DNA of 40,536 nt from Planctomycetota bacterium. GTDB taxonomy: Bacteria; Planctomycetota; SZUA-567; JAKLDR01. Location of the stretch: the NCBI GenBank assembly GCA_022703445.1, contig JAKLDR010000003.1, forward strand, positions 100,407 to 140,942. Reading direction: 5' to 3'. Below are positions 10,278 to 27,612 of the stretch, one piece after another (position 1 is the stretch's first letter; each line of letters opens with the position of its first letter). The position numbers and the translations under genes are program-made. Under the pieces are notes generated by a model, which was not told where the DNA came from, did not search any database, and was given only the letters and a program-made list of their open reading frames with translations.

Positions 10278-10293
10278 AGCAATGCCCGGGCCA
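10278..10293 (-). promoter_or_regulatory. Sigma-54 (-24/-12) promoter for the receiver pair
   Basis: Read on the minus strand the site is TGGCCCGGGCATTGCT. It has GG-N10-GC spacing and differs from TGGCACG-N4-TTGCW at one position. The expected transcript start lies about 50 bp before the ATG at 10217. A sigma-54 activator gene ends about 315 bp upstream of it. Confidence 0.55.
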
Positions 10294-10459
10294 GGAAGCC
10301 CTCTCCCTCCCGGCTGGCTCCCTGACAGAGGGGAACCCCGGCGCCCTGGCGCGCACCGCTGGAATGCCGGGGGCCCGGAGGAAGGAAGGTTGTCTACCAG
10401 TCCGGCCATAAGCGGCGACCAGCCAAGGGGCTGCATCTGATGGCCGGAAACCGACCGTC

Positions 10460-10491
10460 GCAACCGGTTGCCCACAGGCTGCCGGCGGCAG
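10460..10491. other. Two palindromes upstream of the receiver-pair promoter
   Basis: GCAACCGGTTGC (10460-10471) is a perfect 12-bp palindrome. CTGCCG-G-CGGCAG (10479-10491) is a second with one central base. They lie roughly 170-200 bp upstream of the sigma-54-like promoter, a usual distance for activator binding sites. The rest of 10218-10608 holds no convincing gene. Palindromes are not rare in GC-rich DNA, so a role as enhancer sites is a guess. Confidence 0.3.
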
Positions 10492-10608
10492 GCAAGCATC
10501 GGTTCCGCGGGTCAGGGCCCGCGAAGCGTGGAACAGGGGGCAGCAGGCGCGCAGCGGCTGGCGCAAGCCGCGATCCCGGCTGCGCGTCGCCAGTTCATCC
10601 CCGCCTGT

Positions 10609-12570
10609 TCAGCCGCTGTTCTTAGCACCCGCTCCAACAGGCCGTCTGCCAACGGCCTGATGGAGCCCGTACTTGGCTATCTTCTCCCTAAGGGTGACAC
10701 GGGCGATACCGAGGATGGCGGCCGCCCTGGTCTTGTGGCCTCCGGAAGCGTTCAGGGCGGCGACAATGGCTTCCTTCTCGACCTCTTCCAGACTCCTGCC
10801 CCGCAGACCCTGCGCCGGATGCCGGCTGGCGCTCCTTATATCCGGGGGAAGATGCTCGGGCCGCAGGGCCGCCTGGGTCCCGGAGAGAATGATGGCCCGC
10901 TCGACCACGTTGGCCAGCTCCCGGATGTTGCCGGGCCACTCATAGGCCTCCAGGCACCGCAGGGTGTCCGCCGGAAAGTGCTTCCTGCCCTTGAGCGTGA
11001 TCCGGCTGTTCTGCAGGAAATGCCTGGCCAGGAGAGAGATGTCCTCAGGGCGCTCGCGCAGCGGTGGCAGAACGATTGAGAGCACGTTGAGCCGGAAGTA
11101 GAGGTCGGCGCGGAAGCGGCGCCTCCTGACCTCTGCGGCCAGGTCCCGGTTGGTGGCGGCAATGACCCGGATATCCACCTTCTCATCCAGGACCGAGCCC
11201 ACCCGACGGTACTCGCCGCGCTCCAGCACCCGCAGGAGCTTGGACTGCAGTTCCAGCGGCATCTCGCCGACTTCGTCCACGAAGAGCGTGCCGCCGTCGG
11301 CCACCTCCATCAGCCCGGCCTTGGCTTCGGTGGCCCCCGTGAAGGCGCCCTTCTGGTGACCGAAGAGCTCGCTTTCCAGGAGCGAGCCCTGCAGCGCGGC
11401 ACAGTCCATGACCACGAAGGGCTTCTCCGCCCGCGGGCTGTTGGCGTGGATCGCCCGGGCTACCACCTCCTTGCCCGTGCCGCTCGCGCCAAGCAACAGA
11501 ACCGGCGAGGGCGCGCCGGCCGCATCGCTCACGAACTTGCAGATGCGCCCGTGAGCCGCGCCCCTGCCCACCAGCGTCCCCTGCGGGCCGGCCGCGCGCA
11601 GGACGACCTGCGCGTAGTCCTGGGCGCGCCGGGCCTCGTCCTCCATCTGCCGGGCGTGCTGGCGCTGCTCCTCCTGCAGGTGCACGCGGTCGGTGATGTC
11701 CCGGACGACCAGGACCATCTCCGGAACCGCGGCCCCCACGGGCGGCAGGAGCGCGCAGCTCAGGCTGACCGGCACGGTGCCGCCGTCGCACCGCTTGAGG
11801 ATCGCATCGTAGTCGTGGATTTCGCCCCGGCCCAGCGCGCGGCGTAGCCTGGCCGGCTCCCGGTCCGGACCGTCCGCGCCGTCCGCGAAGATGGCCCCCA
11901 GGGGGCGGCCCACCAGCTCCTCGTCGCGGCAGCCGAGGAGTTCCAGTGCCCGCTGATTGCAGATGCGGATGACGTCGTTGCCCGAGACAACCAGCAGGGC
12001 GTCGACCATCGAGGCGATGACGGCCCGGCTCCAGGCCTGCTCATCCCGGAGGGCCTGGCCGGCGACCCGCTCGCGCCCGGCGGCCTCGTCGCCCACGCGC
12101 TTGACCTTGAGCCAGGCACGGACGCGCGCGACGGTCTCGGCCAGGTCCAGCGGCTTGAAGAGGTAGTCGTTGGCGCCCGCCTCGAGCCCCGCGACCACCG
12201 CTTCGCTCTGGTCGGCGTCTTTGACCGCGCCGGTCATGAGCACGATGACCGCGTGGCTCAGTCTCGGCTCCTCGCGGAGCCGCCGCGCCAGCTCCGCGCC
12301 GGTCATCTCCGGCATCATCAGGTCCACCAGGAGGACGTCGGGGCAGCAGGTCCGGACGATCCGGAGGGCCTGGTCCGGGCCGGCGCAGGGCACGGGCAGG
12401 AAACCGGCCCGCTCGAAAGCCCGGCACAGCACCCCGCGCACGTCCGCGTCGTCGTCCACGATGGCGATCAGGGGCACCGCTTGGGGCGCCTCCTGAACCG
12501 GGACCGGAGCCCCGTCCGGGGCTGGACCGGAAGGCACCTCCCCCGCATCGGACATGGGCGGACCGTCCAC
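10609..12570 (-). CDS. Sigma-54-dependent response regulator (REC-PAS-AAA+-Fis)
   Basis: A 653-residue NtrC-class activator. Order of domains: proline-rich N-terminus; receiver (~33-155) with IVDDDADVR and phosphoacceptor D83; PAS (~175-295); sigma-54 interaction AAA+ domain (~325-560) with Walker A GASGTGKE, the sigma-54 contact loop GAFTGA, Walker B TLFVDEVGEM and the arginine-finger region; and a Fis-type helix-turn-helix (~600-640, HKTRAAAILGIARVTLREKI). It should bind upstream sites and open sigma-54 promoters when phosphorylated. The GTG start lies 2 bp after the stop of the hybrid kinase, its likely partner; ATG at 12555 is an alternative. Candidate target promoters are annotated at 10278, 14810, 25128, 25376 and 27597. 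Confidence 0.95.
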   Translation of the reverse strand: MDGPPMSDAGEVPSGPAPDGAPVPVQEAPQAVPLIAIVDDDADVRGVLCRAFERAGFLPVPCAGPDQALRIVRTCCPDVLLVDLMMPEMTGAELARRLREEPRLSHAVIVLMTGAVKDADQSEAVVAGLEAGANDYLFKPLDLAETVARVRAWLKVKRVGDEAAGRERVAGQALRDEQAWSRAVIASMVDALLVVSGNDVIRICNQRALELLGCRDEELVGRPLGAIFADGADGPDREPARLRRALGRGEIHDYDAILKRCDGGTVPVSLSCALLPPVGAAVPEMVLVVRDITDRVHLQEEQRQHARQMEDEARRAQDYAQVVLRAAGPQGTLVGRGAAHGRICKFVSDAAGAPSPVLLLGASGTGKEVVARAIHANSPRAEKPFVVMDCAALQGSLLESELFGHQKGAFTGATEAKAGLMEVADGGTLFVDEVGEMPLELQSKLLRVLERGEYRRVGSVLDEKVDIRVIAATNRDLAAEVRRRRFRADLYFRLNVLSIVLPPLRERPEDISLLARHFLQNSRITLKGRKHFPADTLRCLEAYEWPGNIRELANVVERAIILSGTQAALRPEHLPPDIRSASRHPAQGLRGRSLEEVEKEAIVAALNASGGHKTRAAAILGIARVTLREKIAKYGLHQAVGRRPVGAGAKNSG

Positions 12571-12572
12571 GC

Positions 12573-26402: not shown

Positions 26403-26623
26403 AGTGCGTCCGGAAACCGGGGCGGGGCGCGCGGGCGGGACCGAAAGCTGATGGCGCCGTCTCGGTCACCGGCGGAGACCCGGCCCCGCCAAGGAACGCG
26501 GCCGGTCCGGAGGAACTCCAAGGGGCCCATGTCCGGGTGATGTCCCTGTTCGCGGTTCTGGCGGTGGTTGGCGAGTTGTCGGCGGCTGCGGTGGGCACAT
26601 CGCCGCAGGCCTAAGGAGATCCA

Positions 26624-27466
26624 ATGAGCACTGACGTCGTGGTGAACAACATGGGTACCGCGGCCGGAGCCGTGTGGGAGGTCCTGGCCGCCAACGGACC
26701 GGTTGCCCTGGACTGGCTGTGCCGGGCAGCCAGGCTGTCCGAGAGCGACGCCAACCGCGGAATCGGCTGGCTGGCCCGCGAGGGCAAACTGTCCCTGGAG
26801 CGGAGGGGGCACCGGCGGGAGGTCCGGGTGTCCAAGGCGGCCGAACGGGTCCGCCAGCTCCTGCTCTCACGCGGGCCCATGCTGCTCGTCCGGGCCACGC
26901 AGGCCGCGGCGATTCCCGAGGACCTCGCCCAGCAGGGCCTGGGCTGGCTGGCCCGGGAGGGACGGATCGAACTCAACAGGGTGGCCGACGGCCGGAAGGT
27001 CGAGGTCGGCAGGGCGGCCGCGGCGGTCTGGCAGCTGGTGCGCTCGCGCGGGACCGTCGCCAGGAGGGACATCCCCCGGGCCACGGGCCTCACCCCGGGA
27101 CTGGCCAACGCGGCGATCGGCTGGCTGGTGCGCGAGGGCAAACTGGTGGTCGAGGACCGGTGCGAAGACCGGTCCGCGGGTTCGGAGCCGGCCGTCCGGG
27201 CCGCGCTGCCCTCGCCTGCCGACGGGACGCTGACCCTGGAGGAGAAGGGGCGGGGGACGGGGGTGCCGATCGGCGAGGCCGCCGGCGTCATCTGGCGGGC
27301 CCTCGATCTTCAGGGGTACCTCACCGCAGAGGAACTCAGCCTGGAGACCGGCCTGGCCGAGGACCGCCTCAACCAGGGCATAGGCTGGCTGGCTCGCGAG
27401 GGCAAGCTGTCCGTCGGTCGCGACCGGAAGGGGCAGGAGTGGTTCAGGCTGAACGGTGCCTGCTGA
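26624..27466 (+). CDS. Four-repeat winged-helix protein (DUF2582-like)
   Basis: A 280-residue protein made of four tandem winged-helix units of ~55-65 residues. Each starts with AAG.VW/AAERVRQ-type helix 1 and ends with the signature GIGWLAREGKL (near residues 47, 104, 165 and 254; written GLGWLAREGRI and AIGWLVREGKL in units 2 and 3). A linker of ~35 residues separates units 3 and 4. DUF2582 proteins normally have one such domain, as in the gene at 38040. The function is unknown; the fold suggests DNA or protein binding. The ATG follows AAGGAG. The gene stands between a DUF1328 gene and the diguanylate cyclase, with its own upstream gap. Confidence 0.82.
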   Translation: MSTDVVVNNMGTAAGAVWEVLAANGPVALDWLCRAARLSESDANRGIGWLAREGKLSLERRGHRREVRVSKAAERVRQLLLSRGPMLLVRATQAAAIPEDLAQQGLGWLAREGRIELNRVADGRKVEVGRAAAAVWQLVRSRGTVARRDIPRATGLTPGLANAAIGWLVREGKLVVEDRCEDRSAGSEPAVRAALPSPADGTLTLEEKGRGTGVPIGEAAGVIWRALDLQGYLTAEELSLETGLAEDRLNQGIGWLAREGKLSVGRDRKGQEWFRLNGAC

Positions 27467-27481
27467 CCACTTTGGCCACCT

Positions 27482-27503
27482 GGCTGCGCGCCTGATCGCA
27501 GCC
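27482..27503. terminator. Hairpin after the four-repeat winged-helix gene
   Basis: GGCTGCG-N8-CGCAGCC forms a perfect 7-bp stem 15 bp after the stop codon. No T-run follows, so it is either a weak intrinsic terminator or a 3'-end stabilising hairpin. Confidence 0.35.
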
Positions 27504-27596
27504 GAATGTTCGCCGAAGACCTTCCTGGCGCAGCGCCCCTTTCCGCAGGCAGGGCGGATCGTGGCACTTGCGCGCCCTGACGCTCCATGGGATCCG

Positions 27597-27612
27597 TGGC
27601 GCGGAAGTTGCT
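27597..27612 (+). promoter_or_regulatory. Sigma-54 promoter of the diguanylate cyclase gene
   Basis: TGGCGCGGAAGTTGCT has GG-N10-GC spacing and one departure from TGGCACG-N4-TTGCW. The predicted transcript start is about 77 bp before the ATG at 27701, in an otherwise empty gap (27504-27700). Confidence 0.6.

Follow-up and report, generated by a model that had tools for sequence, protein, structure and literature searches.

The window analysed here is a stretch of 40,536 nucleotides from a Planctomycetota bacterium that reaches to the end of its contig (JAKLDR010000003.1; C223:100407-140942), in a genome of 5.99 Mb that is distributed over 314 contigs and is 81% complete. It carries four sites resembling promoters of the sigma-54 RNA polymerase, placed before a pair of receiver genes, a PilZ gene, a CheY-like gene and a gene for a GGDEF diguanylate cyclase, and it encodes a sigma-54 activator. 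The original prediction described these elements as one local regulon around that activator. We find that the four sites are very likely real sigma-54 promoters. On balance they probably work as such and are split between the window activator (10609-12555) and a second activator encoded outside the window on the same contig (C223:86783-88141), a reading that comes from sequence comparison. The likely division is into two regulons, in which the window activator would serve the receiver pair and the outside one the other three promoters. Coordinates without a contig name refer to the window.

Sigma-54 sites in the window and in the genome

A pattern search of the full window for TGGC-N7-TTGC returned four exact matches and no others, at positions agreeing within one base with those predicted. 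By the gene calls made in this analysis all four are intergenic and face the next gene. TGGCCCGGGCATTGC (10279-10293, minus strand) faces the receiver pair, which starts at 10217(-), and TGGCACGGACGTTGC (25129-25143, minus strand) faces the PilZ gene at 25064(-). On the plus strand, TGGCATGGTGCTTGC (25376-25390) faces the CheY-like gene at 25590(+) and TGGCGCGGAAGTTGC (27597-27611) the diguanylate cyclase gene at 27701(+). The core TGGCNNGG is common to all four. Transcription from sigma-54 promoters starts 11-12 nt after the GC of the -12 element, and by this convention the predicted leaders measure about 50 nt for the receiver pair, 53 nt for PilZ, 78 nt for the GGDEF gene and 188 nt for the CheY-like gene. 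A start some 50 bp before the start codon, predicted for three sites, is thus seen at two only, those of the receiver pair and PilZ.

The intergenic DNA of the window amounts to 3358 bp. Within it, the same half-sites at eleven other spacings (2 to 13) gave 0 or 1 match each. Dinucleotide shuffling of the intergenic pieces, repeated 3000 times, gave 0.19 matches on average and three at most, with no shuffle reaching four. When the whole window including its genes was searched with up to one mismatch, 59 matches were found against 42.7 expected, the highest of 100 shuffles giving 58. The signal of the window is the intergenic, gene-facing placement of the sites; the motif is less striking when counted together with genes. 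A fifth, weaker site had been proposed at 14810 (TGGC-N7-GTGC). We do not count it because it is one of seven one-mismatch intergenic sites of the window and because degenerate sites are barely in excess in the genome sample; as promoters, this site and another at 14663 do not rise above chance.

For the genome-wide control we used a sample of 1.19 Mb with 95,098 bp of intergenic DNA on twelve contigs, which were large or activator-bearing and not random. The sample holds 25 intergenic sites with the N7 spacing, 23 of them facing the next gene, against 1-9 intergenic (mean 4.7) and 0-8 facing sites (mean 2.8) at other spacings from 2 to 13; on this basis about 20 of the 23 facing sites are expected to be genuine. 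The degenerate pattern TGG[CT]-N7-[TC]TGC occurs 46 times against 11-26 at other spacings, and after subtraction of the exact sites little excess is left (21 at N7 against 8-21 elsewhere). Throughout the 6 Mb genome, genes included, there are 373 exact matches and 184 matches to the reversed pattern. Sites are denser in the window (4 in 3.4 kb) than in the remaining sample (21 in 91.7 kb; Poisson P 0.008 in a post hoc comparison).

The rpoN gene that such a regulon requires is present as a single match in the genome (PF04552, 200 bits), with a frame open without stops and containing ARRTVAKYRE, which we take to be the RpoN box. The activator domain PF00158 has 34 matches in the genome, 29 of which score at least 109 bits. 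An exact intergenic site lies in 6 of these 29 activator loci, covered over about 1.5 kb per side and less at contig ends, compared with 105 of 2000 random 3.4-kb segments (binomial P 0.0035); spacings of 4, 5, 6, 8, 9 and 10 gave 0, 0, 1, 0, 0 and 1 at the same loci. Two of the six are the window module and a sister module described below. The window is not peculiar in having promoters near an activator; the genome as a whole tends that way. The four sites look like real sigma-54 promoters because they are specific in spacing, face genes, occur with an intact rpoN frame and are kept in a paralogous module.

Two kinase-activator modules on one contig

The window activator (10609-12555, minus strand) matches the profiles of a receiver, a PAS domain, an AAA+ domain with the GAFTGA motif and a Fis-type helix-turn-helix; no other PF00158 match falls within the window. 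Next to its gene is a hybrid sensor kinase gene (12573-14492, minus strand; PAS, HisKA, HATPase, receiver), whose start comes from our own gene caller and which was scanned as 12573-14696. The activator and hybrid kinase predicted at 10609-14492 are thus both present. The receiver-pair promoter is the only one of the four directly behind the window activator gene.

The sister module lies on the same contig before the window, and about 12.3 kb separate the end of its activator gene from position 1 of the window. Here a PilZ gene (C223:84431-85765, minus strand) with its exact sigma-54 site (C223:85840-85854, minus strand) is separated by a kinase-activator pair from a second exact site (C223:88230-88244, plus strand), which points to a CheY-like gene (C223:88290-88670, plus strand). 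By profile matches, the pair consists of a small kinase (C223:86016-86786, plus strand) and the outside activator (C223:86783-88141, plus strand), with a receiver, an AAA+ domain with GAFTGA and a Fis-type helix-turn-helix. Some starts given by our gene caller are wrong; that of the sister PilZ gene is probably at 85798, where the homology match begins, and not at 85765.

Window and sister copies are 66% and 77% identical in two stretches of PilZ and 71% identical in CheY. The window copy lacks the kinase and activator genes that separate PilZ and CheY in the sister, and the window PilZ lacks a stretch that matches MshEN in its counterpart (residues 225-309). Both promoters are kept in the two copies, while the upstream regions differ by gaps and substitutions. 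The CheY promoters have TGGCATGG-GCTTGCGA in common and the PilZ promoters GATGGCACG--C-TTGCTCC. The CheY sites were compared directly; in the MAFFT alignment of their upstream regions the two promoters fell out of register. As judged from these comparisons, retention of the two promoters in the sister module is the best evidence of conservation at hand. AATCGATGAGGCA, a block common to both PilZ upstream regions, was rejected as a binding site because these regions are homologous in their entirety.

Sequence searches for activator sites yielded three candidate palindromes. GCTTCAGCTGAAGC (25296-25309) lies between the divergent PilZ and CheY promoters, TTCAGGCTGAA (27443-27453) falls within the last part of the DUF2582 gene, 154 bp ahead of the GGDEF promoter, and GCAACCGGTTGC (10460-10471), before the receiver pair, occurs only once in the genome. 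The last overlaps a one-mismatch sigma-54-like site, TGGGCAACCGGTTGC(-), at 10460-10474, and either role is possible, if any. GCAAC-N-GTTGC near the start of the window kinase gained no clear support. The form TTCAG(N)CTGAA is present at six places in the whole genome of 6 Mb, against three for a reversed control, and two of the six are in the window, one common to PilZ and CheY and the other before the GGDEF promoter. When one mismatch is allowed, copies are found before 4 of the 23 predicted promoters and in 10 of 898 other upstream stretches; the four are those of the window PilZ, CheY and GGDEF genes and, with one mismatch, the sister CheY gene. It was not found upstream of the receiver-pair promoter. 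We infer two regulons because the palindrome groups the promoters in this way, because the C-terminal helices of the two activators differ (the proteins are 43% identical over 335 aligned residues) and because the sister module has its own activator.

Several observations weigh against this division or against the conservation of its parts. With two mismatches TTCAG(N)CTGAA shows no excess (4 of 23 promoters, 113 of 898 other stretches), and the sister PilZ promoter has no copy with up to two mismatches within 250 bp. Because the motif was picked from these very sequences, only the GGDEF and sister CheY copies count as independent support. Four PilZ paralogues exist, and only the sister has a site; no exact facing site was seen on C271, on C112, or on C56, where 370 bp were examined. 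Among 29 genomes of the class, the PilZ protein was found in its own genome and had no match in the 28 others; a scan of genome_contigs yielded no relative of it either. A genome of the same class, G011, shows no excess of N7 in 1.2 Mb (9 intergenic sites against 3-16 at other spacings), sampled as three 400-kb stretches of which one was chosen for holding a CheY-like gene. That gene (36% identity) was the one distant match outside the own genome in the CheY search at E 1e-15. TGGC-N7-TTGC lies before it, and one of the four facing sites of G011, this same one, precedes a receiver-only gene (8 of 888 genes; P 0.036); as evidence of conservation this carries little weight. Exact sites of G011 lie at L164:12146-12162, before a CheY-like gene near an activator, and at L164:5033-5049, before a large gene without Pfam match. 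Neither a GGDEF homologue in G016 (46% identity) nor, directly before the gene, a GGDEF paralogue on C23 (43% identity) has a site.

Of the explanations that compete with two activators at this locus, the strongest holds that the sites are true sigma-54 promoters of which some or all answer to others among the genome's 29 activators. Strong activator matches are plentiful, and 23 of the 29 loci have no exact intergenic site in the stretch examined, so that distant targets must be common. Sites and activators are, however, closer than in random segments, and by their palindrome these promoters fall in with the sister module; we consider this explanation unlikely. A single regulon, with all four promoters driven by the window activator, is probably not what the locus holds, and we regard it as improbable. 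In its favour, that activator lies within 18 kb of all four sites, as the window's sole candidate, and the sites have a core in common. Yet a second kinase-activator pair is flanked by counterparts of the PilZ and CheY promoters, the receiver pair lacks the candidate palindrome that precedes PilZ, CheY and GGDEF, and the two activators differ in their C-terminal helices. The local regulon as originally proposed therefore stands in its promoter-like sites and their closeness to an activator; a single activator is not supported, since two of the promoters, those of PilZ and CheY, are part of a duplicated module whose sister copy has a kinase and an activator of its own. That the four sites arose by chance in GC-rich DNA is very improbable: the pattern is frequent inside genes and the number of sites was chosen by eye, but no shuffle reached four, only N7 is enriched, nearly always facing a gene, and sites are kept in the sister module.

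Predicted targets and related systems

The receiver pair consists of a receiver-only response regulator (9265-9783, minus strand; PF00072, E 3.9e-11) and a divergent receiver-like protein without acidic pair on inspection (9777-10217, minus strand). The latter has no Pfam match and was recognized by a hidden Markov model built here (E 9e-5 before it joined the training set). The PilZ gene (23922-25064, minus strand) is followed on the same strand by genes for a NAD synthase-like protein, a phosphopantetheine carrier, an AMP-binding ligase, a HUP-domain protein and a hydrolase, and short gaps between them suggest an operon (18130-25064). In the sister, the gene after PilZ encodes a T2SSE-type ATPase. 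PilZ followed on the same strand by a T2SSE-type ATPase with MshEN is seen at L096:2205-5765, the C223 sister, and at L165:3322-6911 on C271; this neighbour has been lost in the window. The sister CheY gene is followed by DUF883_C, hemerythrin and ferredoxin genes, and a possible housekeeping promoter, TTGACA and TACACT about 16 bp apart by eye, precedes the sister kinase-activator pair (L096:5946-5980).

The window CheY-like gene (25590-25976, plus strand) encodes a receiver-only protein (PF00072) with phosphorylation residues on inspection of the translation and is a paralogue of C223:88290-88670. Between it and the GGDEF gene (27701-28588, plus strand; PF00990, E 3.6e-47) are genes for a DUF1328 membrane protein of 55 aa (26235-26402) and for a protein with three matched DUF2582 winged-helix stretches (26624-27466). 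Right after the GGDEF gene, 28744-34269 encodes a very long hybrid kinase of up to 1841 aa with CheB, CheR, several PAS, GAF, HisKA, HATPase and receiver domains.

Contig C223 also carries genes for a flippase (PF01943), a Wzz-type protein, a PF02397 sugar transferase (C223:98845-100044, scanned without its last residues) and a polysaccharide exporter, and the window in addition encodes an O-antigen ligase, a glycosyltransferase, a deacetylase and a FemAB-like protein. The two modules are likely linked at this exopolysaccharide locus. Exact sites also lie before the polysaccharide exporter gene and a hexapeptide-repeat protein gene. Elsewhere in the sample they precede genes for FliP, a flagellar rod protein, Hsp20, two STAS proteins, a MacB-like permease, an ArsR-type regulator and proteins without Pfam match. 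The Hsp20 gene (PF00011) has its site at C293:25712-25726 (L133), and another exact site, L167:5227-5241, precedes a gene resembling Hsp20 by eye.

Receiver-only proteins, defined as those of up to 210 aa, make up 5 of the 23 predicted targets against 12 of 930 genes (Fisher P 4e-6). The assignment is weak for two of these proteins, namely 9777-10217, mentioned above, and C293:36406, which scores 21.4 bits against a cut-off of 30.2. With the CheY paralogues counted once the excess is 4 of 22 (P 7e-5), without 9777-10217 as well it is 3 of 22 (P 0.001), and outside both modules it is 2 of 19 (P 0.01, with gene totals rounded). This tendency is not new, since a survey of sigma-54 regulons names CheY-like receivers (COG0784) among the sigma-54-linked groups of several classes (PMC12316311). 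The main text of that survey does not mention PilZ, and the passages covered describe no module of the present layout. Nor was a description of the PilZ, kinase-activator and CheY layout found in the literature searched, which is not proof of its absence.

Sigma-54 control of exopolysaccharide and flagellar genes is an established theme (Francke et al. 2011, PMC3162934). In keeping with that account, sigma-54 sites and activators here lie beside exopolysaccharide and flagellar genes, the sites facing genes shortly before their start codons; the predicted targets differ from it in being mostly regulators (PilZ, receivers, GGDEF), and the modules in being duplicated. As in the PrsK/PrsR system of PEP-CTERM/exosortase loci (Haft et al. 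2006, PMC1569441), a kinase and a sigma-54 activator accompany exopolysaccharide genes, together with -24/-12 sites and a second motif upstream. Membership in that system was rejected: the activators score 379 and 327 bits against the TIGR02915 cut-off of 502.6, which nothing in the genome exceeds, and the kinases 43 and 86 bits against the TIGR02916 cut-off of 300. Unlike PrsK/PrsR loci, this genome, at 81% completeness, has no match to the exosortase PF09721. PEP-CTERM-type ligase and FemAB-like genes, a point of likeness to those loci, do occur in the window with scores below cut-off.

Two further systems suggest what the receiver-only products could do, by analogy: activate a polysaccharide transferase or restrain a kinase. 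EpsW is a receiver that activates a polysaccharide-initiating transferase (PMC12802240). On this contig, too, a receiver-only protein is encoded together with a Wzx locus that includes a PF02397 transferase; in contrast to EpsW, the CheY-like gene has a sigma-54 site, and the two need not be orthologues. Osp is a receiver-like inhibitor of the kinase CckA (PMC9430884). Here a degenerate receiver is predicted to be made under its own pathway's regulator, beside a CckA-like hybrid kinase, the predicted regulator being a sigma-54 activator and not CtrA. CckA is the best NCBIfam match of the hybrid kinase, below cut-off (427 and 340 bits against 1000).

A proposed circuit

If two activators serve the locus, each sensor kinase would phosphorylate the receiver of its partner activator. 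The AAA+ activators would then bind the upstream palindromes and, by way of the GAFTGA loop, open the sigma-54 polymerase complex at the expense of ATP. Acting in trans across roughly 37-40 kb, the outside module would raise the PilZ operon together with the CheY-like receiver and the GGDEF enzyme; it may thereby tune cyclic di-GMP and the Wzx-type exopolysaccharide locus nearby. Under the window module two receiver-like proteins would be raised, which may feed back on the window kinase.

A wider and rather doubtful proposal is that the lineage repeats one circuit, running from a kinase through a sigma-54 activator and a sigma-54 promoter to a receiver-only protein. By making a receiver that accepts phosphate or blocks the kinase, the activated regulator would limit its own signal, and copies of the circuit would flank and time the exopolysaccharide locus, one of them having lost its activator and obeying that of its sister.

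Published work already covers sigma-54 at exopolysaccharide and flagellar genes as a general theme (PMC3162934), and the control described here is of an ordinary bacterial kind in an unusual, duplicated layout. The excess of receiver-only proteins among the predicted targets gives a concrete, testable feedback hypothesis. If the reading with two activators is right, both c-di-GMP and receiver proteins would be under sigma-54 control at a polysaccharide locus, in a lineage that has no close relatives among the genomes compared, and the window would hold a duplicated module whose promoters outlived their activator gene.

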